The notes beneath the pieces were generated by a model. The model saw only the letters and a list, made by a program, of their open reading frames with translations, had not been told where the DNA came from and made no database searches. A DNA stretch of 64,000 bases from a virus, in the IMG/VR virus record IMGVR_UViG_3300011113_000640, positions 248,001 to 312,000 of that record; one strand, given 5' to 3'. The translations under genes were made by a program, and so were the position numbers. Below, one piece after another: positions 42,214 to 64,000 of this stretch. The stretch's first letter is position 1; every line of letters begins with the position of its first letter.

Positions 42214-42692
42214 CAGGTCCTTCGCACATTCAAATAAGCTGGTTGATTGCTGTACAAAAATTCACTCCAAACAGATTCTAATTCTTCAACAGTGTTAGGC
42301 TGATAAATTTTGATGTTAGGGAACACTTCAACAGCACGAACAGCATCTTCGGCCCAGTGACTGAAACCCAAATGACCATAGTCCTGATCACGGCCGACTC
42401 CTACCAGTTTGACCGGTGCAAGTTCATGATCAAGATAGTTGCGTAGCCACTCATAAGGGCGGAAGATCACAAACGGAGTAATGCTGTAACACACAGGTAT
42501 CTTGCCGCAATGAGTAAGTCCTACAGCAGTTCCCAGCATGAGTTGTTCTGCAGCACCTACATTAAGAGCACGGTCTGGTGCTACTTCTCTTGATCGATTA
42601 AGCACACCAAACCCAAGATCACCTGATAACAACCATACATCGGGATCTTTGGCCAATGAGTCAGCCATGAGTTCACCAAATCTATTTCTCAT
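42213..42692 (-). CDS. Transketolase-like protein, pyrimidine-binding subunit
   Basis: 159 aa from ATG 42692, overlapping the partner gene as ATGA. It has WLLSGDLGFGVLNRSRE, NVGAAEQLMLGTAVGLTHCG with the TPP-activating Glu in GAAEQ, and GVGRDQDYGHLGFSHWAEDA. This is the middle domain of transketolase; the C-terminal domain of the full enzyme is missing. With the TPP-binding partner it forms a split transketolase, as in some antibiotic and LPS branched-sugar pathways. Confidence 0.85.
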   Translation of the reverse strand: MRNRFGELMADSLAKDPDVWLLSGDLGFGVLNRSREVAPDRALNVGAAEQLMLGTAVGLTHCGKIPVCYSITPFVIFRPYEWLRNYLDHELAPVKLVGVGRDQDYGHLGFSHWAEDAVRAVEVFPNIKIYQPNTVEELESVWSEFLYSNQPAYLNVRRT

Positions 42693-43297
42693 AGTTGCTC
42701 TAGATCCTCGGGTTTGAGCACATAGTAGTGCGTGAGTATGCCCTTGGCAAACGACCAATCCGGTGGCGCAGTTTCACGTATGTTGATTCTTGGCAAAAAT
42801 GCCCGCAACCTACGGATGATATATTCTTTGTCGATAAAGTCATAGGCAATCATGCCATTGACATTGACGTATACTTCTAAATTGTCTAACTTGGCTTCGT
42901 AGATAAAACGTAATGCTTCCCATATACTTCCTTCACCACACTCACCGTCACTGATCAAACAATGCACTCGACGAGTACGATCAGCCAGAGCATATCCACA
43001 AGCCACAGTAAGGCCCATGCCTAAACTACCAGAGCTACAAGGCAGTCCGTCTTCGATGTTTCTGTGTGGATGGACTCCGTGTTTGTGAAATAAGTGTTCA
43101 GCATCTTTGCCAAGATATTTTTCTAAAATCACGTACCAAGCCAGGGCCGCGTGACCAGAACTTAAGATAAACGGTTCGTTGGGTTGTCGATTTTTGTAAA
43201 TTTCTTCAATGATATTGACAGCATTAAGATTGGAACTTAGATGTCCAATCTTTTCTCGATAGCTGATATCAATGATTCTTTGTTCAACGTCGTTCAT
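42689..43297 (-). CDS. Transketolase-like protein, TPP-binding subunit
   Basis: 202 aa. The TPP motif is ISDGECGEGSIWEALRFIYE with VYVNVNG completing the GDG-N box; KIGHLSSNLNAVNIIEEIY and FILSSGHAALAWYVIL are the N-terminal transketolase motifs, GLPCSSGSLGMGLTVACGYA the loop. It begins four bases before the end of the E1-dehydrase gene. Two-carbon transfer onto a deoxysugar is plausible given its neighbours. Confidence 0.85.
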   Translation of the reverse strand: MNDVEQRIIDISYREKIGHLSSNLNAVNIIEEIYKNRQPNEPFILSSGHAALAWYVILEKYLGKDAEHLFHKHGVHPHRNIEDGLPCSSGSLGMGLTVACGYALADRTRRVHCLISDGECGEGSIWEALRFIYEAKLDNLEVYVNVNGMIAYDFIDKEYIIRRLRAFLPRINIRETAPPDWSFAKGILTHYYVLKPEDLEQL

Positions 43298-48461: not shown

Positions 48462-48911
48462 CTAACCTTCGTAGATGGCACTGTTGGCACCGTGTTCGGC
48501 ACATTCTACACGCACACAGTAACAACGGTCATTGGTCTTTTTGCGGATTAGTTGATCAGCAAAGTTAAAAGCATGTTCGGCAAACTTCTCTGCACCCACT
48601 CCATTGAATATTCTAATCTCTACTAGGTCCAATGCTTGTAATTCTTCAAACTTAGCCAAGTGTGGATCTCGTTTATCCAGGGCCAACTTGTGATCAAAAT
48701 GATCTTCCAACCAGGCTTTTAGTTCTTTGAGTCCGCCAAAGTCCACTGCCCAGTTTTTATCGTCCAGACTGTCACAACCAAAAGTGAATGTGAACGCCAG
48801 ACTGTAACCATGTAGCAAGTGACAGTGACTGTGATCAGCATTGGGCTGTCTAAATACAGCACTCAAGCCAATGTTGTGCCCGTAGTGTTTTGTTGAATAA
48901 TACTTTGCCAT
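48462..48911 (-). CDS. queD: 6-carboxy-5,6,7,8-tetrahydropterin synthase-like
   Basis: 149 aa. The core is HSHCHLLHGYSLAFTFTFG, where the second zinc His of the usual HGH is Tyr (HGY), as in a QueD variant I recall from phages. VDFGGLKELKAWLEDHFDHK is the conserved D-F-G...H-x-L region and CAEHGANSAIYEG the C-terminal Glu-His site. It converts dihydroneopterin triphosphate to CPH4 for QueE. It has its own promoter and AGGAG. Confidence 0.85.
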   Translation of the reverse strand: MAKYYSTKHYGHNIGLSAVFRQPNADHSHCHLLHGYSLAFTFTFGCDSLDDKNWAVDFGGLKELKAWLEDHFDHKLALDKRDPHLAKFEELQALDLVEIRIFNGVGAEKFAEHAFNFADQLIRKKTNDRCYCVRVECAEHGANSAIYEG

Positions 48912-48929
48912 TATAATTCTCCTATGTTA

Positions 48930-48958
48930 ATTATAGCATAGGCGGCAGAGTTTGTAAA
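48930..48958 (-). promoter_or_regulatory. Sigma70-type promoter for queD
   Basis: Minus strand TTTACA (48953-48958), 17 bases, TATAAT (48930-48935), 18 bases before the ATG, with AGGAG in the leader. Confidence 0.75.
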
Positions 48959-48986
48959 GCGGGAGTGACGCCAAGACCGCTGGATA

Positions 48987-49211
48987 TTATTTTTTGTTTT
49001 TGGGTGCTACAGATTTTTCCGGTGCTGTTTTTCTTGCAGATTTGGTCTGGGTGGTATCTGTCATGTCAATGAGTTGTTGCACCGTATCAAGAGCTTGTGT
49101 AGTAGCAAACATCTGCCAAAGTTGATTGTTGGCTACCTCAATGCTGGTGAATTCTAGTTCAATGATCTGATCATTTTTTAACTGGAGTTGGAATTTTCTT
49201 TGTTGGCTCAT
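48987..49211 (-). CDS. Small phage protein
   Basis: 74 aa. It begins MSQQRKFQLQLKNDQIIELE, a beta strand pattern, has VANNQLWQMFATTQALDTVQ, and ends with a Lys-rich tail (KTAPEKSVAPKNKK). Eight bases separate it from the 59-aa gene. Function unknown. Confidence 0.55.
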   Translation of the reverse strand: MSQQRKFQLQLKNDQIIELEFTSIEVANNQLWQMFATTQALDTVQQLIDMTDTTQTKSARKTAPEKSVAPKNKK

Positions 49212-49219
49212 GTGTGTCC

Positions 49220-49399
49220 TTAATCGTAGTAAACGTATCCTGATTGTTTATTAGTTATGTTTGCACCAGGTCGATCTATTTCTTTTGAGGGCTTGTCCCA
49301 AAGTCTAGCGCGACCTTCTCTCTGCTGTTGTTCGGTGTCGGGGTGCTGTTGTTTATACCGTGTTAACCATTGATCAAATTCGCTGATGTATTTTACCAT
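49220..49399 (-). CDS. Small conserved phage protein
   Basis: 59 aa, starting MVKYISEFDQWLTRYKQQHP. It has EQQQREGRARLWDKPSKEID and ends SGYVYYD. Similar EFD-W-L-T-Y...RLWDKPSKEIDRP sequences are familiar from T4-like cyanophages. Its ATG overlaps the end of the HIT gene. Function unknown. Confidence 0.65.
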   Translation of the reverse strand: MVKYISEFDQWLTRYKQQHPDTEQQQREGRARLWDKPSKEIDRPGANITNKQSGYVYYD

Positions 49400-49764
49400 T
49401 TTTTGTAATTGCCTTTGCCGGGTATTGTATTACGGACACCGCCCACTGGATCTTCTACATCGCCCTTTTGACGTGGAATAAGATGTATGTGTGGATACAT
49501 CACAGTTTGACCCGCTGCTTCTCCTGAATTATAACCAATGTTGAATGCATCGCATTCTCCTTCTGCAACCATGTGGATGCCGTCGGCTAGGGCATCTTCA
49601 AAGGCCCTGACTATCCAATTAGGATTGTCGTTGTCTTTGGGCACATACAATCTATGACCGGGTGTGCATGGATAGCGATCAAGATACACCATGGTCGTGG
49701 TTTTTTCATCTACCTGTTGGTCCCAGGGTGCTATGCCTGCCTTTTGTGCTTCGATCAATTTCAT
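49393..49764 (-). CDS. HIT-family protein
   Basis: 123 aa from ATG 49764. The histidine-triad motif appears as TVMYPHIHLIPRQKGD, and DRYPCTPGHRLYVPKDND and DAFNIGYNSGEAAGQT match the HIT fold (nucleotide-binding loops). HIT enzymes hydrolyse nucleotide phosphoramidates or diadenosine polyphosphates. The last His of the HxHxH triad is replaced by Pro-Arg context as in some Fhit-like variants. It overlaps the 59-aa gene. Confidence 0.8.
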   Translation of the reverse strand: MKLIEAQKAGIAPWDQQVDEKTTTMVYLDRYPCTPGHRLYVPKDNDNPNWIVRAFEDALADGIHMVAEGECDAFNIGYNSGEAAGQTVMYPHIHLIPRQKGDVEDPVGGVRNTIPGKGNYKKW

Positions 49765-49765
49765 T

Positions 49766-52252
49766 TTAGTCAAACCAGTATCTAATTTCGTGCATGACAC
49801 GATAATGATTCAGCCCACTGGTAGCAGTGGTCATCGCGCTGAATCGATATTGTGTGTTTTTGTTTATCATGCTTGTGTATAAACCTCTGACATAAGGTGT
49901 GACCTGATTCTGTACCGACATCTTTTTATGAGTATACTGTATGTTACCTTGATTGTCAATACTGGTCGGCAGTTTTGCTTCTACTGAACCACTTAACACT
50001 ACAGGTTTGACACCACCATACAACCCAAAATGTCCTCCTCTCTTGACATCACCAAATCTATAACCAGTTTCTGCCCAGGCACCGGTCATGTTATTTACAC
50101 GGGTGATCAATCCTGGATTGATGTTGGTAGACACGTGCATCAAGCTGGCCTGCGCACTAAATCCTCTGTGTCGGAAAGTTACCACATTATCCAAGATGCC
50201 AGAACTGTTTATGCTTCCCCAACTGCCACCAAACGCTATCCAAGGGTTGGCGTTGAGATTGGTGTACTGCACCCCATAGGTAAATTTGCCTTTGCTGTAG
50301 ACCTTGGGCAGGCCCACGGTGTATTGCGTGGGTCGGTTCAATCCCATCCCTGTGTTGTCTCTGCCGGCAAAATCGGTGCCAACTCGCATGCCGTTGACCG
50401 TGGTCAAAGCACCGTTGACAAGATATTCTGCATGGCTGGTCAGTTCATATTGATCATTGTGTTCGGTATTGAAACCAAATGCATTCATGCGGTTGACATT
50501 CATTACCGAAATGTTGCTGTTGTAGCCTCGGCCCAGTTGATCCATGACCACAACTGATCCATCACCAAGATTGACTCCTGTCAAATATCCTGTTATGGGC
50601 TTGAGGCCGCTGAGGGTGGCCAAACTCAGTTGCCCTACTGGTTTGAATATGTCTTCTTCGCTGATCACAGCCACACCGTTGAAATAGGTTGCCGCGGTTC
50701 TGGCCAAAACTTCATTGGCCTGAGGCAAGGTCATGTATGGCCATTTTTGCAAAATAAGATTTACTGCACTCTGGGCAGTGGTCACTGTGGATGCGCCAAG
50801 TTCACTCATATACACAGCCAACTGGCGATCAGATCCATTCATAAAGCTCACAGCTGTCAACAAATAAAGTTTGCCGCCTGGACCACGCATCACGTTGACA
50901 GTATTGCCCATGTTGTCGCCGTTTTGCATTTCTGCGGCCTGTTTGACAAAATCAGTCAATAATTTTTGGTGTGCTGCCACGTACTTGCCGTCGGAGCTCT
51001 TTAACAAAAATTGATGGCTGGTGTTATTGCCACTGAAATCGGCTCCGCTGACCAAGATATCTTCTTTGCCGTCGCCGTTGATATCAACAAATTTGGGCTT
51101 GTATGTTGAGTAGGTGTTGGTGTTATAGCCAACTAGCACGTCGTCAGTGACATCAGTGAAATTGCCGCTGCCGTTGTTTTTCAAAAACTGTATTTCACTG
51201 AATTTCGATGCACTGTGATTGGGTCTACTGAAAATCAACACGTCGAGTTTGCTGTCGTCGTTGAAATCATAACTGACAGCTCGCACATTATGACTGCCAC
51301 CAAAATTATTACTGGCCCATTTGGGCAGCTCAAACCTGGGTGTAGGCAAGGTGTGTAATACAGTGAACACCGCTTCGTTGGAAGCATTCAAAGACCAGGA
51401 GAACAGTTTGGTAGCGGCACTGCCCGCGGTCCACTGGTCAGTGGCTATGATTTGTCCTTGTCCATTGCCCAGAAAATCACCAATGGCCACAGCACTGGCT
51501 CCGCGTATAACAGGATTGGTCTGACTTTGAGTATGCACCGAGAAACTGCTGATGCGGTTGTTCAAGGCTATGGTTGTGTTGGTTCCATAGTCAGCAATAA
51601 CAATGTCCTTGTAACCGTCGCCGTTGAGGTCTCCAACCGCACTATCATGGCTCCAGATAGGAACAGTGGTCAGCGTCTGTCGTTCAAAACTTGTACCGTT
51701 ATTACGGAAGAAGTATGCAGGACCATAGTGTTGCATGTCAGTACCAGGAGACACAAACAGATCATGGCGTCCAGTTTTAAAGAAGTCGTCGAGTTTGATG
51801 CTGGGTTCTGTGCCCAGGATCACATTGGTGTCATTGGGGAACCATTGTGCGGTTTTGTCTACCAGTTGACCGTTGTTCCAACTAAACATGCTGAGCCTAA
51901 AACTGCCCCACTCTGGCACTGTGGCCGGCTGTGTCATTCTACCTGCGATGAGCACATCATCTTTACCGGTACCGGTAAGATCTGCTGTAAATGTGTCAGC
52001 CACAGCCCAGGCATGTCCATTGTTGACTCCGGGTGCATTGATCAAGGGATCAATTGTGGCTACCTTGACAGGTGTGGCATAGGGCACTTCAGTTCTGAGA
52101 TAAGGATTTGATGATACCGGAGGAACCATAACTGGCGGAGCCATGTATGCAGTTCCTGGATTGCCAGCGCCTCCACCACCACCACCACCACCGCAACCGG
52201 TAATGACGATAACTGTGCCAAAAAGACAAGTCCAAAGCAGTTTGCGCCGCAT
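49766..52252 (-). CDS. Lipoprotein with FG-GAP propeller repeats and C-terminal barrel-like domain
   Basis: 828 aa. The lipobox is GTVIVITGC near residue 20, followed by eight glycines, a proline-rich linker and repeated FG-GAP/VCBS-type blades: DLTGTGKDDVLIAG, DLNGDGYKDIVIAD, DFNDDSKLDVLIFS and DINGDGKEDILVSG, each with the Ca-binding DxNxDxxxD loop. After residue 560 the sequence turns to alternating strands and ends YRVMHEIRYWFD, like the end of an outer-membrane barrel. It has a strong promoter. It is the longest intact gene here and probably reached the outer membrane. Likely acquired. Confidence 0.75.
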   Translation of the reverse strand: MRRKLLWTCLFGTVIVITGCGGGGGGGGAGNPGTAYMAPPVMVPPVSSNPYLRTEVPYATPVKVATIDPLINAPGVNNGHAWAVADTFTADLTGTGKDDVLIAGRMTQPATVPEWGSFRLSMFSWNNGQLVDKTAQWFPNDTNVILGTEPSIKLDDFFKTGRHDLFVSPGTDMQHYGPAYFFRNNGTSFERQTLTTVPIWSHDSAVGDLNGDGYKDIVIADYGTNTTIALNNRISSFSVHTQSQTNPVIRGASAVAIGDFLGNGQGQIIATDQWTAGSAATKLFSWSLNASNEAVFTVLHTLPTPRFELPKWASNNFGGSHNVRAVSYDFNDDSKLDVLIFSRPNHSASKFSEIQFLKNNGSGNFTDVTDDVLVGYNTNTYSTYKPKFVDINGDGKEDILVSGADFSGNNTSHQFLLKSSDGKYVAAHQKLLTDFVKQAAEMQNGDNMGNTVNVMRGPGGKLYLLTAVSFMNGSDRQLAVYMSELGASTVTTAQSAVNLILQKWPYMTLPQANEVLARTAATYFNGVAVISEEDIFKPVGQLSLATLSGLKPITGYLTGVNLGDGSVVVMDQLGRGYNSNISVMNVNRMNAFGFNTEHNDQYELTSHAEYLVNGALTTVNGMRVGTDFAGRDNTGMGLNRPTQYTVGLPKVYSKGKFTYGVQYTNLNANPWIAFGGSWGSINSSGILDNVVTFRHRGFSAQASLMHVSTNINPGLITRVNNMTGAWAETGYRFGDVKRGGHFGLYGGVKPVVLSGSVEAKLPTSIDNQGNIQYTHKKMSVQNQVTPYVRGLYTSMINKNTQYRFSAMTTATSGLNHYRVMHEIRYWFD

Positions 52253-52283
52253 GCTAACACCTACAAGAGTTTACAATAAAACT

Positions 52284-52312
52284 ATTATAGCACCACGGGT
52301 ATTTTGTGTCAA
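52284..52312 (-). promoter_or_regulatory. Sigma70-type promoter for the FG-GAP lipoprotein
   Basis: Minus strand TTGACA (52307-52312), 17 bases, TATAAT (52284-52289), about 30 bases before the ATG. Confidence 0.85.
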
Positions 52313-52318
52313 ACTAGG

Positions 52319-52747
52319 TTAGTACACGCTAACTTCTTGTTCTAAATAGCGAATCAGCTCTTTGTCTGTGGGTTCTACGGTGTAGTTCTGCTTGAAAAAG
52401 ATTTCGTAGCTGTCCGAACCGTATTTGCCTATGCCGTAGAGCTTGGTGGCATCCACACCATCCCAAGTGGCAAAGTCCAAGGTCATTCGTCGGAGACGTT
52501 CGTAACGCACATTGACCATGCCCAGACTCCAGATCACGTCTTTGACTTCCCGTTCAGTGGCGCCATAAAAAGCTCGGGGCCCGCGCCATTTCGACCAGAA
52601 CACAGGCGCCACGTGTTTAACTGGTTTACGACCAGTTTGGTTCAGCATGATCACGGCCACCATGTGTTGCCAGGCACCATGGGTATACTGAAAACCATCT
52701 GGCAACTGTTGTTGCACCATGAGGTCATCACGGAGAGGCTGGATCAT
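52319..52747 (-). CDS. HhH-GPD DNA glycosylase-like protein (MBD4-like)
   Basis: 142 aa. It has HMVAVIMLNQTGRKPVKHVA, WSKWRGPRAFYGATEREVKD and the helix-hairpin-helix KLYGIGKYGSDSYEIFFKQN, followed by EPTDKELIRYLEQEV with a possible catalytic Asp. This is very like the glycosylase domain of MBD4, which removes mismatched thymine or uracil. It is next to small-membrane and FolE genes. Role could be repair or handling of modified bases. Confidence 0.75.
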   Translation of the reverse strand: MIQPLRDDLMVQQQLPDGFQYTHGAWQHMVAVIMLNQTGRKPVKHVAPVFWSKWRGPRAFYGATEREVKDVIWSLGMVNVRYERLRRMTLDFATWDGVDATKLYGIGKYGSDSYEIFFKQNYTVEPTDKELIRYLEQEVSVY

Positions 52748-52950
52748 TTGGCTTCGGGTTTAGTTTGCGACTGGATAGGTGTGCATCGCATCTCAGGTGG
52801 CTCGCACAATTCCCATCGGCCATTCCTGGTATCCATCCTGTACATTTGGCCGTTGAGCACTATGGGAGTAAAGGCACCATTGTCCACGCTGGGGTGGACG
52901 AATGTGTATCCTGTGAGAACTACTAGCACGCTTGTGAGTATGATTTCCAT
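52744..52950 (-). CDS. Small membrane-anchored or secreted protein
   Basis: 68 aa. The N-terminal segment MEIILTSVLVVLTGYTFVH is a likely signal anchor; the rest (NGAFTPIVLNGQMYRMDTRN, CEPPEMRCTPIQSQ) contains two cysteines. Both ends overlap neighbours. Function unknown. Confidence 0.55.
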   Translation of the reverse strand: MEIILTSVLVVLTGYTFVHPSVDNGAFTPIVLNGQMYRMDTRNGRWELCEPPEMRCTPIQSQTKPEAK

Positions 52951-53789
52951 TATCTAGGTGCGAACTCTTGTTGCAGTTTGATATTGTCCATGAACTCTTT
53001 CTTGGTGCCAGGATCAGTCTTAAACGCACCTCGGAGCACCGTGGTCTGTGTCAGGCTCGAATGTGCCATGATGCCGCGATTTTCACAGCAACCATGAGTG
53101 GCTTGGATATAAACACCAATATGTTCAGAATCTGTAGCACGAGCAATCTCTCGGGCAATGTCGTTGGCTAGTTCCTCTTGAAGAGTACCCCGGCGAGCAC
53201 ACCATTGAGCAATCCTAGTATACTTACTAAGACCAATGAGCTTGTTAGCCGCAATGATTCCGATGTAAGCAACTCCAGACACAGGCTGATGATGATGACT
53301 ACACATACTGCGCAATTCACTGCGTACAACCAACATACCTTCATATCTATCCTCACTATCGTTAGGGAAAGCAGTGGCATCAGGGCGGGGTTCATACCTA
53401 CCTGCCATGATTTCGTTGAAATACATCTTGGCCAATCTACGTGCTGTGCCAGCACTGTTGGGATCTGTTTCTCTATCAATCAACAAGGTATCCAGCACTC
53501 GTTCAAATGCTTCTGTGGCTTCATCAATCAACTGTTTGCGTTCTTGCTCTGATTCGATAAACTCACTGACGTTGTCTCCGGCCCAGAATCGTTTACCGCT
53601 GGCCCGCATGCTGTCTCGGATAACCTGGCTCAGTGGGCGACCTTCGTCGGGATCTACTACAGCATCCTCATAACCAGGATGATATGGCGCCTCTGCCACA
53701 ATACGGCTTTGTTGTAAGGCATCGAATGTTTTTTGGCTGGCATTATTTTTCACTGCGTTCTCTCTATCTTCACTGGTAAATGTTGTCAT
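52950..53789 (-). CDS. folE: GTP cyclohydrolase I
   Basis: 279 aa. The zinc and active-site motifs are ELRSMCSHHHQPVSGVAYIG, KLIGLSKYTRIAQWCARRGT and YIQATHGCCENRGIMAHSSL (zinc Cys in GCCENRG). It opens GTP to dihydroneopterin triphosphate, the first step to 7-deazaguanines. An N-terminal extension of about 80 residues exceeds the usual 190-220-aa enzyme. It has its own promoter, sharing sequence with the clamp promoter. Confidence 0.92.
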   Translation of the reverse strand: MTTFTSEDRENAVKNNASQKTFDALQQSRIVAEAPYHPGYEDAVVDPDEGRPLSQVIRDSMRASGKRFWAGDNVSEFIESEQERKQLIDEATEAFERVLDTLLIDRETDPNSAGTARRLAKMYFNEIMAGRYEPRPDATAFPNDSEDRYEGMLVVRSELRSMCSHHHQPVSGVAYIGIIAANKLIGLSKYTRIAQWCARRGTLQEELANDIAREIARATDSEHIGVYIQATHGCCENRGIMAHSSLTQTTVLRGAFKTDPGTKKEFMDNIKLQQEFAPR

Positions 53790-53800
53790 AGTTTTCTTTC

Positions 53801-53828
53801 ATTATACAGGTTATTTAGATTTTTGCAA
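53801..53828 (-). promoter_or_regulatory. Sigma70-type promoter for folE
   Basis: Minus strand TTGCAA (53823-53828), 16 bases, TATAAT (53801-53806). The stretch GCAAAAATCTAAATAACCTG before the -10 is almost the same as in the clamp promoter (61768-61796). Confidence 0.75.
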
Positions 53829-54402
53829 GATCAAATGGAATTTTTCTCAAGTCTGGATAAATTCCTGGTTGCGATTTGGGGTCAATAGTTGGTAATAGTT
53901 CCAAGCCCTTGGCACACAATTCCAAAGTAGGGCAATAATGCCACCCTAAAATTAATTCTGTTTCTTCTTGCCAAGGTATGTGTAAGTCTCGCCCATCTGC
54001 TCTTTGTCGACTAAACACTTTGTATGCTTCTGCATCGTCCAGCAATATTGCTCCCGCCTTGCCCAACTGCAAAGGTTTGGTCCAACCAAAGCTCAAACAT
54101 TGAAATTGACCTGCACGATACATGTTGCGTTCCAAGCGTCTGGCACTGTCCCATATACGAGAATTGGCAAATTGATATTCGCCTCGCCAGGTTTGATCAG
54201 TAAGTTTGTAATCAACACCCAGATGAGTCAGCATCATAGGAACACTGAGATAAGTGTATGCTGTAAAACTGGTTTGTTTTACCCGATCATATCTGAAACA
54301 TAGTTCAAGAGCATGTGTACAACCATCTGTGAGTACCACATAAGGTGCGCCAGTGTACTCGGCCAAGGCTGATTCAAAGTCAAACAAGGCTTGAAAACTC
54401 AT
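53815..54402 (-). CDS. Short DegT-like aminotransferase-fold protein
   Basis: 195 aa from ATG 54402. It has YVVLTDGCTHALELCFRY and CLSFGWTKPLQLGKAGAILL, matching the substrate loop and PLP lysine (GWTKPL) of DegT aminotransferases, but only about half of the usual 370 aa is present. It may be a shortened phage variant or an internal-deletion form. It overlaps the coiled-coil gene upstream. Activity uncertain. Confidence 0.65.
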   Translation of the reverse strand: MSFQALFDFESALAEYTGAPYVVLTDGCTHALELCFRYDRVKQTSFTAYTYLSVPMMLTHLGVDYKLTDQTWRGEYQFANSRIWDSARRLERNMYRAGQFQCLSFGWTKPLQLGKAGAILLDDAEAYKVFSRQRADGRDLHIPWQEETELILGWHYCPTLELCAKGLELLPTIDPKSQPGIYPDLRKIPFDLAKI

Positions 54403-54761
54403 TCGCTTAGATGATCCTTTTTGATTTCTCGCACCGAACATCCTAGTTGTTCAGCTATGGAATTTTTTAGCTGTATTCTCTGATTATTTAAATTTCTTAT
54501 CATGATAGCTCTACGGCCTAATTCTTCCAACGACAATTCAGATTCTCTGCCTGATTTTAATTCTGCTTCTAAATTCCAAATTTCACTGTGTATGCCATGC
54601 AGTTGAGCTAATTCTTGTTCGACCATGCCAAGATCGTATCCGCTGTCGTTGAGCTGACGATCATAGAAATCAAATTCTTCCTGATTCGCTCCATTGGTCT
54701 TGGCTAATTTTAACTTGGCAATGGCAAATCTGTCTACCAGTTCGATCACAGGAAATATCAT
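54399..54761 (-). CDS. Helical protein often found in glycan clusters (DUF6165-like)
   Basis: 120 aa. The start MIFPVIELVDRFAIAKLKLA and the following helices (QELAQLHGIHSEIWNLEAEL, IMIRNLNNQRIQLKNSIAEQ) resemble the DUF6165-type family near LPS genes, a coiled coil with a KTN-ANQEE break. Coupled to both neighbours by ATGA. Function unknown. Confidence 0.55.
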   Translation of the reverse strand: MIFPVIELVDRFAIAKLKLAKTNGANQEEFDFYDRQLNDSGYDLGMVEQELAQLHGIHSEIWNLEAELKSGRESELSLEELGRRAIMIRNLNNQRIQLKNSIAEQLGCSVREIKKDHLSE

Positions 54762-55786
54762 AGATACATGGTCTCAAGTCGTTTAGGATCATCTAAAATC
54801 TTTTGTATTTCAATATTGTTGACATTGGGCCTGCATGGTCGGCATAGGCCAACATTGGTTCGATTGTAAATCTCTTGGTGTCGTTTGCCCAACCACAGGT
54901 CTCGGAAATCGCCGGAATCCCAAGAACCTAGTTCAAACTGTGGATCACCTTTGCCTTCACAACACACATAAATCTTGCCATTGGCACAAAACACTGGAAA
55001 ATGAAACATTTGGTGGCATTTTTTATAAGTTCTTGGCAGGGTCTTGTTGGTGTTAACCCAATATTTTACATTGTGCTTTTGTCCAAGATGTTCTAACATG
55101 GTCAAGGTAGCATCCGTCAACGTATGTGCCTGATTGTTTACTATCACTGGTCTAAAATACAACATTCTGCCGCCCAGGCGTTTGACCAGGGCAAACAAGT
55201 CATCCATGGCTTGATAATTGTCATTGAGCGGATTGATCAAGCATTTGAAATCTACATTGGCTCCGGCTTCGATCAAGGCCCGGGCATTGTCACACACCTT
55301 GTTGAACAAACTCCTGGCTGTAAGACTGCGTCGGATCTGTTCATACAGATCCTCAGTGCCAGCATCTATATCTATGCCAATCCAGGCTATCTTGCGTAGT
55401 TTTTCCACGGACACACTGCTCAACAATTTGTCTAGATTGCTTCCATTGGTAGTGATACTACAAAAAAATCCCAAGTCAATGGTGTGTTCTATCACATGTT
55501 CATAACCAATCAATACCGTGGGTTCGCCGCCGCCTGGATAGGTAATGGTGTGCGTGGTACCATAACTTCGAGGACTGTGCGCTCGCCACCCGGCCAATTT
55601 ATCCAAGAGGTCAATGTATTCAGTGTATTTTTTTTGCACCGGTTCTTGAGCTCTAAATTCTGCCGAGTTGCAATAGTAACAATCTTGATTGCACACATTG
55701 GTCAGATCGATGTCTACCTGCGCAGGCAAGATACCCATGCTGTCTTGATTTTTCATCCAGTGGACGAGTTCGGCAAATTGATACAT
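54758..55786 (-). CDS. Radical SAM/SPASM protein
   Basis: 342 aa. CNQDCYYCNSAEFR near residue 33 is the CxxxCxxC cluster site; TYPGGGEPTVLIGYEHV, ITTNGSNLDK and WIGIDIDAGTE complete the core. The C-terminal SPASM-type cysteines are in CANGKIYVCCEGKGDPQFEL and NVGLCRPCRPNV. SPASM proteins bind extra clusters and modify peptides or sugars. Next to a GalE-like gene and DegT-like gene. Confidence 0.85.
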   Translation of the reverse strand: MYQFAELVHWMKNQDSMGILPAQVDIDLTNVCNQDCYYCNSAEFRAQEPVQKKYTEYIDLLDKLAGWRAHSPRSYGTTHTITYPGGGEPTVLIGYEHVIEHTIDLGFFCSITTNGSNLDKLLSSVSVEKLRKIAWIGIDIDAGTEDLYEQIRRSLTARSLFNKVCDNARALIEAGANVDFKCLINPLNDNYQAMDDLFALVKRLGGRMLYFRPVIVNNQAHTLTDATLTMLEHLGQKHNVKYWVNTNKTLPRTYKKCHQMFHFPVFCANGKIYVCCEGKGDPQFELGSWDSGDFRDLWLGKRHQEIYNRTNVGLCRPCRPNVNNIEIQKILDDPKRLETMYL

Positions 55787-55789
55787 GTT

Positions 55790-56740
55790 TTACTTAGTGC
55801 TATACCAAGCCCAGGCATGACGAACCATGTCCTCAAGCCCATATTGTGGTTGCCAAGAACTGACCTTTGCAAATTTGGTACTGTCGGCTGTAAGTATGGC
55901 CGGATCTCCTGGCCTTAAAGGTCCTACTCCTAAGTTTACACGTTGACCCGTGATCTGTTCGGCCATGTTGATGATCTCTCGATTGCTGTGGCCGGTGTTG
56001 GTACCAAGATTGTATAGGCCAGTGGGTATTTTCGTGTCGCAGACCAGGATATGTGCATCGGCCAAGTCTTCCACGTGTATGTAATCTCTGATACAGGTAC
56101 CATCCACAGTAGGGTAGTCCGTGCCATTGAGGGTAAAGTGTGTGTTGTCTCTAATGCTTTCTAAGACTCTAGCGACGATGTGTGTGGCTCCAGGTCTTTG
56201 TCCATGTCGTGCCTGGCTGTCTGCTCCGCAGGCGTTGAAATAACGAAAGCTCACATAGTCCAAGTCATAGGCACGATGATAACTCTGCAACATCCAATCC
56301 ACCATGAGCTTGCTTTGACCATAGGGGCTAATGGGCTCTGCAGGATCTATTTCCTGGCAGGGTGTTATTACAGGATTACCATATGTGGCCGCACTTGAAC
56401 TAAAGATCAATCTGGTTTTAATTTGTTTTTGTACCAACCAATCGCAAAGTATCTTGGTCCGAACAAAGTTGTTCTCGTAGTATTCCTCAGGATCCAACAT
56501 GCTAGGACCCACAAGACTGGTGCCGGCACAGTGTATGATGGCATCGGGCTGGAATGTTTCTATGGCACGCAGAGACACTTCACCGGCAAAATCTGCCACC
56601 AGCCACTTGGCACCGCAGTCGATCAAGGGATTGGGATCAAGACTACGATCAATAGCAAACACACTGTGCCCACGATCCAATAAACCAAGAACTGTTTGGC
56701 CACCTATGTAGCCAGCACCACCGGTGACTACTACTCTCAT
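55790..56740 (-). CDS. galE-like: UDP-glucose 4-epimerase-like
   Basis: 316 aa from ATG 56740, overlapping the glycosyltransferase stop as ATGA. Motifs: VVVTGGAGYIGGQTVLGLLD, IIHCAGTSLVGPSM, LIFSSSAATYGNPV, PISPYGQSKLMVDWMLQSYH (YxxxK) and YFNACGADSQARHGQRPGAT, the GalE NAC-GA element. It converts UDP-Glc to UDP-Gal or analogues. Length is near standard (330). Confidence 0.9.
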   Translation of the reverse strand: MRVVVTGGAGYIGGQTVLGLLDRGHSVFAIDRSLDPNPLIDCGAKWLVADFAGEVSLRAIETFQPDAIIHCAGTSLVGPSMLDPEEYYENNFVRTKILCDWLVQKQIKTRLIFSSSAATYGNPVITPCQEIDPAEPISPYGQSKLMVDWMLQSYHRAYDLDYVSFRYFNACGADSQARHGQRPGATHIVARVLESIRDNTHFTLNGTDYPTVDGTCIRDYIHVEDLADAHILVCDTKIPTGLYNLGTNTGHSNREIINMAEQITGQRVNLGVGPLRPGDPAILTADSTKFAKVSSWQPQYGLEDMVRHAWAWYSTK

Positions 56741-57936
56741 ACTTTTCTCACGTGATATTTGGCCTGGCTCACATGGTCTCTGTAGCGATTGCCTGCACGG
56801 TTCCAAGACTCACCCTTGCCCTCCAGGATATCTACGATACGATCCACAGTACCGTCGGTCCAGTCTGAGATAAGACCCTGGTTGTGATGCGGTGCTCCCA
56901 GCAAGTTTTCTAACTTGTGGAAGGCATCATCAATGCTCCAAGGCACATACAGGCGATTAGGATCGTCAGCAAAGGTTTCAGGGAAACTGCGATAAGCAGG
57001 ATACAGCACGTTGCAACCAAGAGTATCGGCTTCTGATACTGTGTTAGATACCCAGTCTTGTAAAGCACAATTAAACAACACACGAGTATCGTTGAGAAGA
57101 TTGTAATAATCATTTTTCTTCAAGTCCTCATAGATTTTGAGTCGGCCTTGTGATTCTAACTCTCTGGCCCGCAGGATATAACGCACATTGTTGCTTCGTA
57201 GTGGTCCGCCTTGAAACACAGCGAACTCGATATCCTTGTGTCGTCCTTGAGCCAGATACATTTCAATCAAGTCCATGTAAAAGTCTGGTTGTTTCTCTTG
57301 ATCAAATCTCGCGGCAAAGCCCACACGCATTTTTCTTTGGTCAAATGGTTTCATATTTTCTGCGCCACCAATGCGTTCCAGCACTTCTTGTTTGCCAAAT
57401 GCTAATCCACTGATGTTGTAGATTGGAGCAGTCCATCCTGCAATACGCATGTGGGCAACCATTTCTTCGTTGGTGGCCAATACCCCTGTCACGAATTGGT
57501 TAACCATCTTTTCATACGTCGACATCCACTCCGCCATGCCCCATACATGAACAAAGTCATCCGGATCAATGGCTTGAGCAAGACAACGTACATAAATGCG
57601 AGGACGCTGAGACTCAGGCACTTGATCCAGAATATAAGGTAAGCTCTCGATACCGGGCTGAAACATGTCTTCAAAGTAGATAATATCTTCACGGGTGACT
57701 TCTCCATTCCTCATCATTTGCACCAGATTCATCATCTGGCTCATGCTAAAGTAACTGCGGCCATGTGCATCCAATACCTGGCCCACGCTGATGCTTTGCG
57801 TGTTGTCAATGGTGGATCCCGGAACATACACAACATCTAGACCGCGGCGTTCAAATACCCTGCGATTCCATTCTGTGAGTTGTAGGGTGTAACGAGCTTC
57901 GTAGCTCTCTAGACCCATGTAGAACAATTTTCTCAT
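56737..57936 (-). CDS. Glycosyltransferase-like protein (GT-B fold)
   Basis: 399 aa from ATG 57936, overlapping the next gene's stop as ATGA. It has MRVGFAARFDQEKQPDFYMD (second Rossmann domain with GFAARFDxEKxP) and DWVSNTVSEADTLGCNVLYP, like the E-x7-E region of GT4-type enzymes. The N-terminal half begins MRKLFYMGLESYEARYTLQL. Acceptor unknown. Confidence 0.8.
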   Translation of the reverse strand: MRKLFYMGLESYEARYTLQLTEWNRRVFERRGLDVVYVPGSTIDNTQSISVGQVLDAHGRSYFSMSQMMNLVQMMRNGEVTREDIIYFEDMFQPGIESLPYILDQVPESQRPRIYVRCLAQAIDPDDFVHVWGMAEWMSTYEKMVNQFVTGVLATNEEMVAHMRIAGWTAPIYNISGLAFGKQEVLERIGGAENMKPFDQRKMRVGFAARFDQEKQPDFYMDLIEMYLAQGRHKDIEFAVFQGGPLRSNNVRYILRARELESQGRLKIYEDLKKNDYYNLLNDTRVLFNCALQDWVSNTVSEADTLGCNVLYPAYRSFPETFADDPNRLYVPWSIDDAFHKLENLLGAPHHNQGLISDWTDGTVDRIVDILEGKGESWNRAGNRYRDHVSQAKYHVRKV

Positions 57937-58154
57937 ATGTTGCGACCCAGCCTGCGAGCATCTTCCACCCACATGTTCTTGGCATTTTTGCCCTGGCTGA
58001 ACTTGTTGTACTGTTGCCAGGCATAGGCCTTGAAGTTGTAGAGATCTTCCTCGCGGAATCTGTAGCCATAGTCGCGACAGAACTCCAGGAAGTTGCTCAA
58101 CTCTTCTAGTGTTTGTAATGCACGTGGATTGGGACGGTATTCACGCTTGCCCAT
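57933..58154 (-). CDS. Small conserved phage protein
   Basis: 73 aa, MGKREYRPNPRALQTLEELS then NFLEFCRDYGYRFREEDLYN and QGKNAKNMWVEDARR. Similar MGKREY-x-PNP proteins are common in T4-like cyanophages as I recall. Coupled to the glycosyltransferase gene. Function unknown. Confidence 0.65.
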   Translation of the reverse strand: MGKREYRPNPRALQTLEELSNFLEFCRDYGYRFREEDLYNFKAYAWQQYNKFSQGKNAKNMWVEDARRLGRNI

Positions 58155-58165
58155 GATGTTTCCTT

Positions 58166-58615
58166 TTAAATTTTGATTGATTGATAAGGGCGAGAAGTTT
58201 CATACTTGATAAGGCAACCGTTCTCGCCATCTTCGGCCACCTCAATCCATACAGCACGCTCGGGATAACGTGCAGCTATCTGTGTATATAGGTCATCTGC
58301 GATCATCTCGCAACTTTTCCAGTCTAGAGCTAGAACGGTATTTTGACCATGATACAACGACTCGAGCCATCGTTTGAACTGGATAAACTCGATGTCCCGG
58401 TCATTGTGCCACACATCGATCCACACCCGGAAATGAAAAATGTGCCTATGAGGACTAGCAAGAAACGATACATCATACTCTCCTGCTGTATTTAACTTGG
58501 GATCAGTGGCAGCTGCCGGATAACAATGGATTCCTTCTCGACGGAACGTGACCCAGATCTTACGCTCTGCATGTTCCTTGATGCGTTCTATATTTTCTCT
58601 TTCGCTTTGAATCAT
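58166..58615 (-). CDS. Conserved T4-like phage protein
   Basis: 149 aa. It has WVTFRREGIHCYPAAATDPK, FLASPHRHIFHFRVWIDVWH, NDRDIEFIQFKRWLESLYHG and WIEVAEDGENGCLIKYETSR. The FRREGxHCYP and DGENG elements are familiar from cyanophages. The strand-helix pattern could be a T-fold like QueD, but the zinc site is not clear. It lies between small genes close to the DpdA gene. Confidence 0.65.
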   Translation of the reverse strand: MIQSERENIERIKEHAERKIWVTFRREGIHCYPAAATDPKLNTAGEYDVSFLASPHRHIFHFRVWIDVWHNDRDIEFIQFKRWLESLYHGQNTVLALDWKSCEMIADDLYTQIAARYPERAVWIEVAEDGENGCLIKYETSRPYQSIKI

Positions 58616-58839
58616 AGTGCGTTCCTCATTTCAGTGATCCACTCATCCACACGTGCCTCGGCTTCCTTCTGCGTCATGGCCGGCACAGTAATACGGTATG
58701 GTGTGCCTGGTCTATGACTGATATCATAGCGTATGGTTCCATTGAGTATCATATCGTTTTCATCACGCAACACTGTAAACTCTTGCAAGTTCATAGCACG
58801 ATAAATCAGTTCTTCTGCTTGCTGTTTTACATCATTCAT
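58612..58839 (-). CDS. Small hypothetical protein
   Basis: 75 aa, MNDVKQQAEELIYRAMNLQE then a beta-rich part TIRYDISHRPGTPYRITVPA and a C-terminal helix. Coupled by four-base overlaps to both neighbours. Function unknown. Confidence 0.6.
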   Translation of the reverse strand: MNDVKQQAEELIYRAMNLQEFTVLRDENDMILNGTIRYDISHRPGTPYRITVPAMTQKEAEARVDEWITEMRNAL

Positions 58840-59354
58840 TTAAGCACCTCATCTTGGGTATATTTAGACCAGTCAGTGAATACTGACCTCCGTTGTAACG
58901 CATGTAGACTGTGGCACCATACTCCAGGATTGGTTGCCGCAAAATCTCGATCATCCAGTTTGAGTGTGGCATTGTAGCCAAACTGACGTATGTAAGGTAG
59001 TTTGACCGAAATCATGGGAATAAAGTTATGGAACTCTACCAAACTGCTTTCCAGTAAGCCTTCGGCCTGTGCTACATCCAGGTCCAAGGTACAATAGTTG
59101 GGAATCTGTTCTAGACAAACACGGATCATCCATTCCCAATCACGCCAACCATCGCCGTCGTTTTTATCTAACGCTGGAAAACTTTGATTGGCACCAAAGT
59201 AAATGTGTTCACAATCATTGTTGTTGAATTGTTGTAGAACAATCTGTGGATCTTGTATGCCCACCACAAACAAGGTCTTGAGACCATATGCTGGCGAGTG
59301 TTCTACTTCGGTTCCAATAAAGAAACTTACCGCTTCATGTCCTTGTCGGTTCAT
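58836..59354 (-). CDS. Unknown protein coupled to DpdA
   Basis: 172 aa, with SFFIGTEVEHSPAYGLKTLF, VGIQDPQIVLQQFNNNDCEH, YCTLDLDVAQAEGLLESSLV and ISVKLPYIRQFGYNATLKLD. The strands DCEHIYFGANQSF and CTLDLDV are barrel-like and recall radical SAM or QueE-type barrels without cysteines. It starts four bases before the DpdA stop, so it is probably a partner in DNA modification. Confidence 0.6.
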   Translation of the reverse strand: MNRQGHEAVSFFIGTEVEHSPAYGLKTLFVVGIQDPQIVLQQFNNNDCEHIYFGANQSFPALDKNDGDGWRDWEWMIRVCLEQIPNYCTLDLDVAQAEGLLESSLVEFHNFIPMISVKLPYIRQFGYNATLKLDDRDFAATNPGVWCHSLHALQRRSVFTDWSKYTQDEVLK

Positions 59355-60922
59355 CGTATCTGATCATGTTCGAGTTGATCTAATCGGGCCTGTTGGTCCG
59401 GGCTAAATTGTTCTTCTAATTGTACACTGTCTGACTCGTTGTCGTCAACTGTTTCGAACAGTTGGTTGAACATGGGTCTGCCGCTCTTGGCTTTTTTGCC
59501 TTTGAATCCACGTGTGCCAATAATTTCCATCCAATAGCGATCATACTTTTCAATGATCTTTTCGGCTTCTGCACGATCTGGTGTGGCAAATATCGCATCT
59601 ACAATATCTCGGAAATATTCATGATCACCATCTTCTTTACGCATCATGTAGGGATACCGGCCAGAATCGTATTCTCTATTGGCACGCTGTACCGCTTCGA
59701 TGTGCATCCAAACATTGTGACCCATCAACAATGCGTAACTAAAGCTATCCCACGATGTCTTGCCTTCTTTGCCAATCTTGTTTAAGTCTCCTGGCTTGTA
59801 GATACAGATGTCTTTCATCTGTAGTTGTTTGCTGATAGGACTTTCGTCAAAGTGATCAATGAGTCCATCGGCCAACACAGCCGGTCCAAACTGGCGTGTG
59901 TCTGTGGCATACTTCTTGTCGTCCACAATGGGACTCATTCTGTAACACCATTTGCCTTCGTGTGGAAGATCAATGTGATGATACACTTGACCGTTGGCAG
60001 TTGCCAAGAATGGACTGGCACAATCAAATGATATAGTAAATGCTGGATTAACATATCGGCGAACCGCACGTTGGATGTCGGTAAGCAACACTGCCCATTC
60101 AAGTTTACTTGTGCCCAAGAAGTGCATCCAATCATGTACGCCTTCTTGCAATAGGCCATCATGCCGCAAGGCCACAAGTCTACGCAAAATCAGGTGTACG
60201 TCACACATGTTCTGACCGCCCATGGCCCAGCCATCAAAGTGTGTGTCTGGATACTTTGCAGGATCACAATACTCTTTCATGATTTCATACCAGTCGTCGG
60301 CATTCTTGTGATTGTCGCCTTGTAATACGTTCAGGATCTTGGTACCGCCATTGGCTTTGCCTTTGCGATTGGCCATGAAGTATTCGTTGTTGTACTTGGT
60401 GGCATCAATTGCCTGCTGCAGAGTTTTAATCTGGCAGGCATCGCTTGCCTTTTGATCATGGATTACCCAGGTTGGAATATCCAATGTCATACAATAGTCA
60501 CTGACACTGTCCAACCAAGTTAGCACTGCCTTGCGTTTGGTTTCAGCTTTTTTACAGCCCGAATTGGCCTTCCAGTCACCTTCCCACAGGCCCTTGGCAA
60601 TCTGGAATCCACCTGAATCGCCCAGCATCAAGGTATTAGGATCACGGTTACGCACCATGTCTTCTGACCAGTCCTGTTTGTTCAAATCAAGATTGGCATG
60701 GCCACCCGAATATAGAGACCACCGGTAAGGAAACAGACCTTTTTGGCTGTTGAGCCAGTTCATCTGCTCCATGTCCTGGATACCAGCGGGCATCCTTGCT
60801 GGATCCACATAAGGTCCAGCAGGATCACGTTGCTTGCCTACGAATGTAGCATAGAAACCACTGATAGCCGGCAAGAACACAGCATAATCATTTTGCTTGG
60901 CGGTAAGGTTATCTTGACTCAT
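59351..60922 (-). CDS. dpdA: DpdA-like DNA 7-deazaguanine transglycosylase
   Basis: 523 aa from ATG 60922; an in-frame TTG 33 bases upstream is less likely. The TGT-fold motifs are MLGDSGGFQIAKGLWEGDW (DSGGFQ) and ISFDCASPFLATANGQVYHH, matching the TGT nucleophile region FDCVxPTxxAxxG, and FDGWAMGGQNMCDVH matches the GGLAVGE loop. The TGT zinc cysteines are missing, as in DpdA. DpdA swaps guanine in DNA for a 7-deazaguanine base. With FolE, QueD and QueE here, base exchange into phage DNA is the likely role. Confidence 0.85.
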   Translation of the reverse strand: MSQDNLTAKQNDYAVFLPAISGFYATFVGKQRDPAGPYVDPARMPAGIQDMEQMNWLNSQKGLFPYRWSLYSGGHANLDLNKQDWSEDMVRNRDPNTLMLGDSGGFQIAKGLWEGDWKANSGCKKAETKRKAVLTWLDSVSDYCMTLDIPTWVIHDQKASDACQIKTLQQAIDATKYNNEYFMANRKGKANGGTKILNVLQGDNHKNADDWYEIMKEYCDPAKYPDTHFDGWAMGGQNMCDVHLILRRLVALRHDGLLQEGVHDWMHFLGTSKLEWAVLLTDIQRAVRRYVNPAFTISFDCASPFLATANGQVYHHIDLPHEGKWCYRMSPIVDDKKYATDTRQFGPAVLADGLIDHFDESPISKQLQMKDICIYKPGDLNKIGKEGKTSWDSFSYALLMGHNVWMHIEAVQRANREYDSGRYPYMMRKEDGDHEYFRDIVDAIFATPDRAEAEKIIEKYDRYWMEIIGTRGFKGKKAKSGRPMFNQLFETVDDNESDSVQLEEQFSPDQQARLDQLEHDQIR

Positions 60923-61025
60923 TGCGTCCTGAAAGCCATCCAGCAAGTTTTCCAATACCCACGCTTAAAAAAATAAGACCGAATATCAACACTACACTGA
61001 GTCCTAAACCAATCAACAGGTCCAT
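60909..61025 (-). CDS. Tiny membrane protein between clamp and DpdA genes
   Basis: 38 aa, starting MDLLIGLGLSVVLIFGLIFL, with a polar end GRNESR. One transmembrane segment. Its ATG overlaps the clamp stop (TAATG) and its stop lies past the DpdA ATG, so translation would couple all three. Function unknown. Confidence 0.55.
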   Translation of the reverse strand: MDLLIGLGLSVVLIFGLIFLSVGIGKLAGWLSGRNESR

Positions 61026-61747
61026 TATTTGCTCTGTGCTGGCAGGATATAGTTGTAAACAGCAAGACCTGAATCCACAGTGATCATGGCCGCACCATCA
61101 TCACTGATTTTAAATGTCTTGTCGCCGGTCAAATCAAGTATGCTGATTACCAGGCCAATGGGCCATGACCAAGAACGCTTGAGTGTGCCCGTTACACCAG
61201 GATGGAACACAAAGTTACCCGAATGAGTTGAGTGATCGCCAAAGCTAAACTTTAGGTCACCGTTTTCGGTTTTGGCCTGGAAGTTTACTTCTTCAGCATT
61301 GGCTTGTGCCTGCATTTTCAGTCGCTGGATAGCGGCCACAGTCGGAACAAACTCAATGTGCCAATTTACACCTTTAAATTTCACAGTCTTGAGTTTTTCG
61401 TTGATGATTTCACTTGCCATGAATCTGTAGTTGTTTTTGAAGTCGCCAGTGGCGTTTTCAAAGTTGATGCCGTCGGGTGCTCCGGTATCTTTTCTCGTGA
61501 TTGACAGTCTGGCGTTGTCTTTATATTCCGACAGGCCCAGTAAGATGCGCAGTTTGCTCAAGTTGGGCATGCCAAAGTTGCCAATGAATTCGGCCACGGG
61601 TGCGGCAAATGCGCCTTCTACTACCACGCTACGATCCTCGGCTACTGCGCCAATCACTGTGGATTTGTCATCACCGGTGATCTTGATTAGGTCAATGCAA
61701 CCTAATTTCTGTGTGTGTTCTACTAAATCTAATAAATGATCTTTCAT
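61025..61747 (-). CDS. DNA polymerase sliding clamp (T4 gp45-like)
   Basis: 240 aa. MKDHLLDLVEHTQKLGCIDL leads a two-domain beta fold with VIGAVAEDRSVVVEGAFAAP, IGNFGMPNLSKLRILLGLSE, typical of gp45 proteins, and ends SGLAVYNYILPAQSK. T4 gp45 is 228 aa. It forms a trimeric ring that tethers the polymerase. An AAGGAG precedes the ATG; the promoter at 61768-61796 shares its sequence with the folE promoter. Confidence 0.85.
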   Translation of the reverse strand: MKDHLLDLVEHTQKLGCIDLIKITGDDKSTVIGAVAEDRSVVVEGAFAAPVAEFIGNFGMPNLSKLRILLGLSEYKDNARLSITRKDTGAPDGINFENATGDFKNNYRFMASEIINEKLKTVKFKGVNWHIEFVPTVAAIQRLKMQAQANAEEVNFQAKTENGDLKFSFGDHSTHSGNFVFHPGVTGTLKRSWSWPIGLVISILDLTGDKTFKISDDGAAMITVDSGLAVYNYILPAQSK

Positions 61748-62758: not shown

Positions 62759-64000
62759 TTACCACTCAAATAAAGTTTGGAACGTGTTTTCTGTGTTGGT
62801 GGCACTGGCTAAATCCCATCCCAACACACCCAGCAAGTTGTCAATCTTTTGATCCACCACGGTGGCTTCCATTTCTGTGTCATCAAAGGGAAGTTCCTTG
62901 AACCATGCAGGCAAATGTATTTCGTCTGTGGGATAGCCTATGCTGGTCCAACCCAGGGGATTTGACTTGAGTTTGCACACGATGGTCTTCATGCCATCAA
63001 CAATCTGCATGCTGTACTTGTCTGAGTTCATCCTGCGTAAGTTGTTCCAGTTGATGGCCGCACGCACATGGCCGGGCATGTTAGCCTTGCCCAAGCGTTC
63101 TTCTTCCTTGGCATACTTGGTTAGATTGTTCACACGCTTGGGACTTCCTTTCTCCCAACCTGGACGCTCTTTGAACGCATACTTGAACTCACGTATCTTT
63201 TCAATAATCTCGTCGCGTGTCCGGCCTGTGAGCACATCGTTGAGAATCTCACTGAGGAAGTCCTGGATGACCTTGGGCGTATCTGATCTCTTGAGATCCA
63301 AGCCCATGGCCTTGACTCGACCTGGTTCGCCATGCGTGTCCACACGCTTGTTCTCTTTGTCATAGTACATGACAGCATAACGTTTCTTGGTAATGAACAA
63401 GCCCTTGCTAGCCACAATCTCACGACCGCCACGTATGACTTCGCCCATGGCTCTGGGCACATGAAATGCCTGTTCCATGAATCCAGGAAAACTTTCATTG
63501 ACCTGATCTGCGATTGAATTGTATAGTTGTACCGCAATCTCACGCGACCAGGTCATATTGCCGGCTTCGATCTCAGGTTTTAACACAGGATATGCCGAAA
63601 AGTAGCAGGAGTCTGTGTCACCATAGATGATGGCTTCGCCTACATGGTCGTACACACCTGTGATACACTCGTTGACATAAGCATCCATGTGTCGAGCAAT
63701 GGCACGACCTGTGAGTGTAGTTGATTGACCGATGCGTTTATCAAAGAATCTACAACCAGGATTGAGAATAGCACCATACAATGAATTCAAGTTAATCTTT
63801 TTGACCAACTGACGCTTGTCCCAGTATTCTTCATCCTCGGGATTCTTGCACTCCTTGAGCCGGGCCTGCATTTCTTTGCGTTCAGCATACCAGCGTTTGA
63901 GCAGGCCAGGGATCACTGCCTCTCGCTCATAGGTAAAGATAGTGCCATTGGCTGTGATCATCCAGGGCTGGTTGCTGTCAAAGATCATGCGCCAGACTTC
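62759..64000 (-). CDS. Family B DNA polymerase, C-terminal part
   Basis: Open to the window edge; the N-terminal exonuclease and the palm start lie outside. The visible part has KKINLNSLYGAILNPGCRFF (motif B), AIIYGDTDSCYFSAYP (motif C, catalytic DTD) and ITKKRYAVMYYD (KKRY), and a thumb domain with PGHVRAAINWNNLRR. This is the T4 gp43 type replicative polymerase. The gene ends just before the conserved gene at 62757. Confidence 0.95.
   Translation of the reverse strand, partial: EVWRMIFDSNQPWMITANGTIFTYEREAVIPGLLKRWYAERKEMQARLKECKNPEDEEYWDKRQLVKKINLNSLYGAILNPGCRFFDKRIGQSTTLTGRAIARHMDAYVNECITGVYDHVGEAIIYGDTDSCYFSAYPVLKPEIEAGNMTWSREIAVQLYNSIADQVNESFPGFMEQAFHVPRAMGEVIRGGREIVASKGLFITKKRYAVMYYDKENKRVDTHGEPGRVKAMGLDLKRSDTPKVIQDFLSEILNDVLTGRTRDEIIEKIREFKYAFKERPGWEKGSPKRVNNLTKYAKEEERLGKANMPGHVRAAINWNNLRRMNSDKYSMQIVDGMKTIVCKLKSNPLGWTSIGYPTDEIHLPAWFKELPFDDTEMEATVVDQKIDNLLGVLGWDLASATNTENTFQTLFEW

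Follow-up and report, generated by a model that had tools for sequence, protein, structure and literature searches.

A probable cassette for a modified guanine

We analysed a 64,000-nucleotide stretch of viral DNA (the window), which is positions 248001–312000 of the 320,541-bp virus record IMGVR_UViG_3300011113_000640. The window carries genes of a 7-deazaguanine pathway (FolE, QueD and QueE), together with a DpdA-like transglycosylase that may insert the resulting base into DNA, a paralogue of QueD (orf149) and a probable glycosyltransferase. The cassette genes are all located on the minus strand of the window. PTPS and TGT stand for 6-pyruvoyltetrahydropterin synthase and tRNA-guanine transglycosylase, respectively.

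38477–39352, minus strand: QueE, 7-carboxy-7-deazaguanine synthase (phrog_2076, "QueE-like radical SAM", 178 bits)
48462–48911, minus strand: QueD, 6-carboxytetrahydropterin synthase of the phage type (PF01242, 53 bits; phrog_2389, 136 bits)
52950–53789, minus strand: FolE, GTP cyclohydrolase I (PF01227, 135 bits; CSHHHQPV at residue 163, HGCC at residue 232)
56737–57972, minus strand: probable glycosyltransferase, GT4-like (weak matches to PF00534 and PF13692)
58166–58615, minus strand: orf149 (phrog_17812), predicted QueD/PTPS T-fold paralogue (model and residue alignment)
59351–60922, minus strand: DpdA-like transglycosylase, 523 amino acids, predicted TGT fold; the best start is the ATG at 60922

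The original prediction for this DNA, made from the letters of the window, held that FolE, QueD, QueE and the DpdA-like gene are all present and intact. This was found to be the case: the four genes are open reading frames (ORFs) on the minus strand with zero internal stops, and they carry the corresponding family matches, motifs and, for the DpdA-like protein, the TGT fold. QueE, at 38477, lies about 9 kb outside the region 48462–60922 on which the prediction was centered, as its own text had indicated. FolE has both its family match and the zinc-site motifs, and in QueD the catalytic residues Cys30 and Asp73-His74 are kept across the family. Among the radical SAM cysteines of QueE, Cys31 and Cys35 are found in 69/69 sequences and the third, C72, in 65/69; the TGGE motif is also retained. 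A loop of about 36 residues separates cluster cysteines 2 and 3 of this protein, as it does in several other phage QueE proteins. Further radical SAM proteins, encoded at about 1–295 and at 5034–5477 of the window and elsewhere in the record, match the QueE profile weakly and through the radical SAM core only; the record and its relatives contain many proteins of this type.

The DpdA-like protein has zero matches in Pfam, NCBIfam and PHROGs, and a search of the PDB with its sequence or profile gave nothing credible. According to its AlphaFold model (37 input sequences; pLDDT 88.8), it is a TGT barrel: Foldseek related the model to tRNA-guanine transglycosylases with E 4.5e-8, and the comparison with T. 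maritima TGT gave a VIA Z of 20.0 over 301 residues. The nucleophile, on which the original prediction depended, is present. The general-base and nucleophile Asp residues, D113 (in DSGGFQ) and D311 (in ISFDCASPF), occur in 163/163 sequences, and a profile comparison pairs D311 with FDCVMPT of E. coli Tgt. These residue numbers count from the TTG at 60955 with which the mechanical ORF begins; counted from the ATG, the two residues are D102 and D300. Whereas the fold and these two motifs are shared with the bacterial enzymes (E. coli Tgt and T. maritima TGT), the PF01702 (tRNA-TGT) model has no match in the DpdA-like protein, and the zinc-binding site that three Cys and one His form in canonical TGT is largely lost: only C384 (154/163) and H413 (162/163) are conserved, and the CxCxxC set is absent. 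The setting of the gene in a replication module is another difference from bacterial TGT.

The DpdA2 family provides the nearest relative among the tested profiles. When the DpdA-like family was compared by hhalign with DpdA2 (nt-1, pf16, ACP17 and Moby), both Asp residues were aligned, with a probability of 93% and E 2.8e-7, over the core only. However, tblastn joins no member of the DpdA-like group to the DpdA2 group. Because of this gap and the loss of most of the zinc cysteines, we treat the proteins as a separate DpdA-like subfamily. DpdA2 has been credited with dPreQ0 in the DNA of Vibrio phage nt-1 (Hutinet et al. 2019, PMC6884629). The nt-1 enzyme is likewise an inserter of the TGT superfamily, and its gene adjoins FolE in the nt-1 genome; nt-1 differs in having QueC and no orf149. 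In single-sequence comparisons of the DpdA-like protein with Iggy DpdA and the phi38:2 transglycosylase, no useful match was obtained. When the PA5oct and Vibrio proteins were each used alone as the query, the scans returned zero contigs, and the IMG/VR scans for the cassette group returned at least about 600 matches.

For orf149, no significant Pfam match was found. Its model (pLDDT 89.9) has a T-fold, for which the nearest structures are PTPS (P. horikoshii; Z 11.6) and QueD (E. coli; Z 10.6). A global alignment with E. coli QueD places H30, H56 and H58 of orf149 (130/130 sequences) on the zinc histidines and E128 (128/130) on the Glu that anchors the base; in contrast, nothing in orf149 is aligned with Cys27 and Asp70-His71 of QueD. 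The catalytic, zinc and anchor roles of these QueD residues are well established. Since the catalytic Cys and Asp-His are absent, orf149 is regarded as a paralogue and not as a QueD, and it appears to keep the means of holding a pterin-like or deazaguanine-like ring without the QueD chemistry. The hhalign alignment of orf149 with phage QueD is weak (E 0.0017), and recognizing this kinship required the global alignment to E. coli QueD as well as a comparison of folds. In unrelated cultured phages (ACP17, X1, RHph_I1_18, BUCT-ZZ01, Ahp1, MA9V-3 and phiST), orf149 lies near FolE and often near QueE. In two phages, the annotated protein is longer and the orf149 domain makes up its C-terminal portion: Chryseobacterium phage MA9V-3 (L242 6395–7276) and Vibrio phage Bakedbeans (L237 6212–7363).

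Distribution of orf149, QueC and the glycosyltransferase

The original prediction also stated that QueC is not in the window. Searches with PF06508 and other profiles found no QueC in the window or in the whole 320,541-bp record, and all the record-wide absences given here are based on such profile searches. The only match to PF06508, at 37982–38170, is not QueC, as it is located inside the following gene (phrog_11189, 263 bits):

37487–38242, minus strand: NAD synthase (NadE), adjoining QueE; its N-terminal part gives a misleading QueC profile match

The weak QueC matches in two related records (G015 and G026) are likewise NAD synthase, and the QueC-profile match in Xanthomonas phage X1 was rejected, as the gene is annotated as NAD(+) synthase. 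In another related record (G009), the QueC-profile match is below the cut-off. The transporter YhhQ was also not found in the record that contains the window.

Next to this record, the inserter-bearing set (n = 30) comprises 26 IMG/VR contigs, PA5oct, Vibrio phage 2.275 and Phosso. In 28 of these records QueE was matched in full, while QueC was found in one, Vibrio phage 2.275. The PA5oct genome is annotated as complete and that of Phosso is circular and complete, so that the absence of QueC from them does not come from missing sequence. Vibrio phage 2.275 serves as a natural contrast case, for this sole inserter-bearing record with QueC has neither orf149 nor the glycosyltransferase. Its DpdA-like inserter occurs (L003 11935–20050) with QueC, a QueF-like reductase, a YhhQ transporter, a glutamine amidotransferase and an amidoligase-like protein. 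FolE was found in 13/13 and QueD in 12/13 of the inserter-bearing records tested; the que genes and the inserter recur together in other records with the DpdA-like gene, which makes a chance grouping unlikely.

The relationship between orf149 and QueC was then examined in two comparisons. One uses 18 QueE-positive records picked by carrying orf149 or QueC: orf149 without QueC was found in 11, QueC without orf149 in 6, both in 1 and neither in 0. The Fisher test gives p 3.8e-4 for this exclusion, a value weakened by this way of picking the records. In the record that has both, Vibrio phage D479, the partial QueC-like gene (L243 708–1514) adjoins a nicotinamide phosphoribosyltransferase gene. 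The other, fairer comparison uses IMG/VR loci with flanks cut to 10 kb, 80 of them picked by orf149 alone and 80 by QueC alone, which share descent and do not represent 80 independent events. QueC was found in 0/80 orf149 loci, and orf149, the glycosyltransferase of this family and the inserter of this family were each found in 0/80 QueC loci; QueE was within 26/80 of the orf149 loci and 73/80 of the QueC loci. These profiles suggest that orf149 takes the place of QueC across phages. The phages of the QueC type (Iggy, phi38:2, pf16 and Moby) similarly have FolE, QueD, QueE and a transglycosylase, but they carry QueC in the stead of orf149, and the glycosyltransferase of this family is absent from them.

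In every locus that extends 4.5 kb or more past dpdA on the downstream side (93/93), the glycosyltransferase was found. Among the 18 records, it occurs in 6/12 with orf149 and in 0/6 with QueC only. Its PF00534-type match is stronger in the homologue from a Synechococcus phage. From this pattern, the putative glycosyltransferase would act after orf149, on its product, and the simplest reading is that the base becomes glycosylated; that the enzyme decorates the inserted base is nevertheless somewhat less probable than that it does not.

The predicted pathway and its alternatives

On the basis of these observations, the following pathway may be drawn. FolE, QueD and QueE, as intact and well-identified enzymes, can be expected with good confidence to convert GTP to 7-carboxy-7-deazaguanine (CDG). 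The fold of orf149, its kept zinc- and base-binding residues and its exclusion of QueC argue for a protein acting on CDG at the QueC step, and the core of this reading, namely a 7-deazaguanine base inserted in phage DNA with orf149 at that step, is considered moderately probable. The reaction of orf149 would most likely be the decarboxylation of CDG to 7-deazaguanine, an assignment that we hold to be close to evenly balanced, with slightly more weight against it than for it. The DpdA-like enzyme would then exchange guanine for the free 7-deazaguanine base. The location of its gene within a replication module and its profile kinship with DpdA2 suggest DNA rather than tRNA as the substrate. Finally, the glycosyltransferase may put a sugar on the inserted base. 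The whole picture, in which the DNA of this clade contains a glycosylated 7-deazaguanine made by a QueD-fold enzyme, a new DpdA-like subfamily and a linked glycosyltransferase, the sugar perhaps coming from the neighbouring genes for nucleoside diphosphate (NDP)-sugars, is put forward tentatively, as it is more likely to be wrong in some part than right in all. The purpose of the modification would probably be the evasion of host restriction.

Several points weigh against this pathway. Vibrio phage D479, which carries orf149 and a partial QueC-like gene, is the sole exception among the 18 records. Many of the co-occurring loci are linked by descent, and the record that contains the window is linear and possibly incomplete. 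The orf149 protein could perform other chemistry on CDG or on a pterin, and the glycosyltransferase could serve another substrate. To our knowledge, no product has been reported for any member of the DpdA-like subfamily, and the pathway is read here from genes, profiles and predicted folds.

The original prediction went on to propose that the product could stop at CDG or that the host could supply preQ0. Its 7-deazaguanine pathway, DpdA-type inserter and lack of QueC were all retained, while the proposed end products are probably incomplete, as orf149 and the glycosyltransferase had been missed. If the pathway ends at CDG, the DpdA-like enzyme would insert CDG itself (giving dCDG in the DNA), and orf149 would have a different role, for example as an additional pterin enzyme or as a helper that binds CDG. 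The last well-identified enzyme is indeed QueE, the record has neither QueC nor YhhQ, and dCDG has reportedly been found in phages. However, the regular replacement of QueC by orf149 makes a role at the CDG step more economical, and we regard an endpoint at CDG as unlikely. Because orf149 replaces QueC, and because the glycosyltransferase was found, among the phages tested, only in those with orf149, it is more likely that the base is processed beyond CDG by phage enzymes.

The host may instead finish the synthesis, its QueC converting phage CDG to preQ0, which the DpdA-like enzyme would insert. Many bacteria have QueC for queuosine. Moreover, host supply is used by known phages (PMC6884629). 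Such a contribution fits poorly with the exclusion between orf149 and QueC, which spans phages of Pseudomonas, Sinorhizobium, Acidovorax, Xanthomonas, Aeromonas, Cellulophaga and Synechococcus, and it leaves both orf149 and the glycosyltransferase unexplained; we therefore consider it improbable. An action of the TGT-like enzyme on tRNA, not DNA, is suggested by its fold and by the seven tRNA genes and the transfer-messenger RNA (tmRNA) gene in the window, but the absent PF01702 match, the loss of most zinc ligands, the location of the inserter beside the polymerase and clamp in distant phages, and DpdA2 as the nearest tested profile relative make it very unlikely. Separate pathways, with FolE and QueD working in the metabolism of pterins or folate and the glycosyltransferase acting on sugars of the virion or surface, might be imagined from the large sugar-nucleotide gene set in the window, yet FolE and QueD co-occur with QueE and the inserter throughout, for which a folate- or pterin-only role was set aside, and the glycosyltransferase accompanies orf149 into unrelated phages, so that this is hardly to be expected.

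The preferred reading, with orf149 at the QueC step, can be placed among the known systems. Phage 7-deazaguanine pathways have mostly been described with QueC or with host-supplied preQ0. In the work of Cui et al. 2023, phage DNA is reported to contain dCDG and dDG, and a CDG decarboxylase, DpdL, is said to have been predicted on a QueC-less route; no glycosylated 7-deazaguanine is known from that work. The orf149 protein may be DpdL. Should this prove so, the QueC-less step is already known, and what is new would be the DpdA-like subfamily, how widespread it is, and the glycosyltransferase linked to it. The cassette points to a guanine modification for which no description was found in the literature searched. 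Its distinctive elements are an inserter overlooked by Pfam, PHROGs and NCBIfam, the QueD paralogue in the place of QueC, and the glycosyltransferase. With dCDG and dDG already reported, the novelty would lie in a glycosylated 7-deazaguanine; this, if true, would constitute a novel type of DNA base, a new class of hypermodification and a further strategy against restriction. The cassette is shared by a great many environmental phages and by cultured ones such as PA5oct and Phosso, and these cultured relatives put the product within direct reach of mass spectrometry.

Gene order and neighbouring genes

Four further genes of the window belong to the surroundings of the cassette:

40011–40559, minus strand: purine phosphoribosyltransferase-like protein (PRT; PF00156, 60 bits)
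58836–59354, minus strand: orf172, accessory cassette member, overlapping the end of the dpdA-like gene
61025–61747, minus strand: conserved gene on the polymerase side of dpdA, a sliding-clamp homologue according to the Phosso annotation
62759–63988, minus strand: DNA polymerase of family B, anchoring the cassette in the replication module (PF00136, 94 bits), with the same neighbourhood in distant phages

In diverse IMG/VR loci, a region of about 14 kb contains, in this order, the polymerase, the clamp, dpdA, orf172, orf149, the glycosyltransferase, FolE and PRT (in either order), QueE and an exonuclease. The cassette genes of this compact order are dispersed in the window by the large sugar-nucleotide gene set. 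Homologues of the clamp-like gene adjoin the DpdA-like gene or the polymerase in PA5oct, Phosso and Vibrio phage 2.275. Of 160 IMG/VR loci bearing the DpdA-like gene, 137 contain orf172, which also occurs beside DpdA2 of Acidovorax phage ACP17. There, the run is QueD, FolE, orf172, DpdA2, the glycosyltransferase, orf149 and QueE, from which it is seen that the partners travel as a group even with the other DpdA subfamily. The PRT homologues adjoin QueE in PA5oct and BUCT-ZZ01, and PRT is near QueE in the window too; it is possible that this enzyme salvages the guanine set free by the base exchange.

The sugar-nucleotide genes lie amid the que genes, at 36194–37429, 39349–44613 and 53815–56806 (minus strand). 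They encode a UDP-glucose dehydrogenase-like protein, two NAD epimerases, DegT-type aminotransferases (one of them short), split transketolase halves, an FkbM methyltransferase and a radical SAM protein. Between QueD and FolE, a gene for an FG-GAP repeat protein of 828 amino acids is located at 49766–52252 (minus strand). The tmRNA gene, at 29949–30305 (minus strand) in the company of the seven tRNA genes, has the tag ANAANDEVFALAA.

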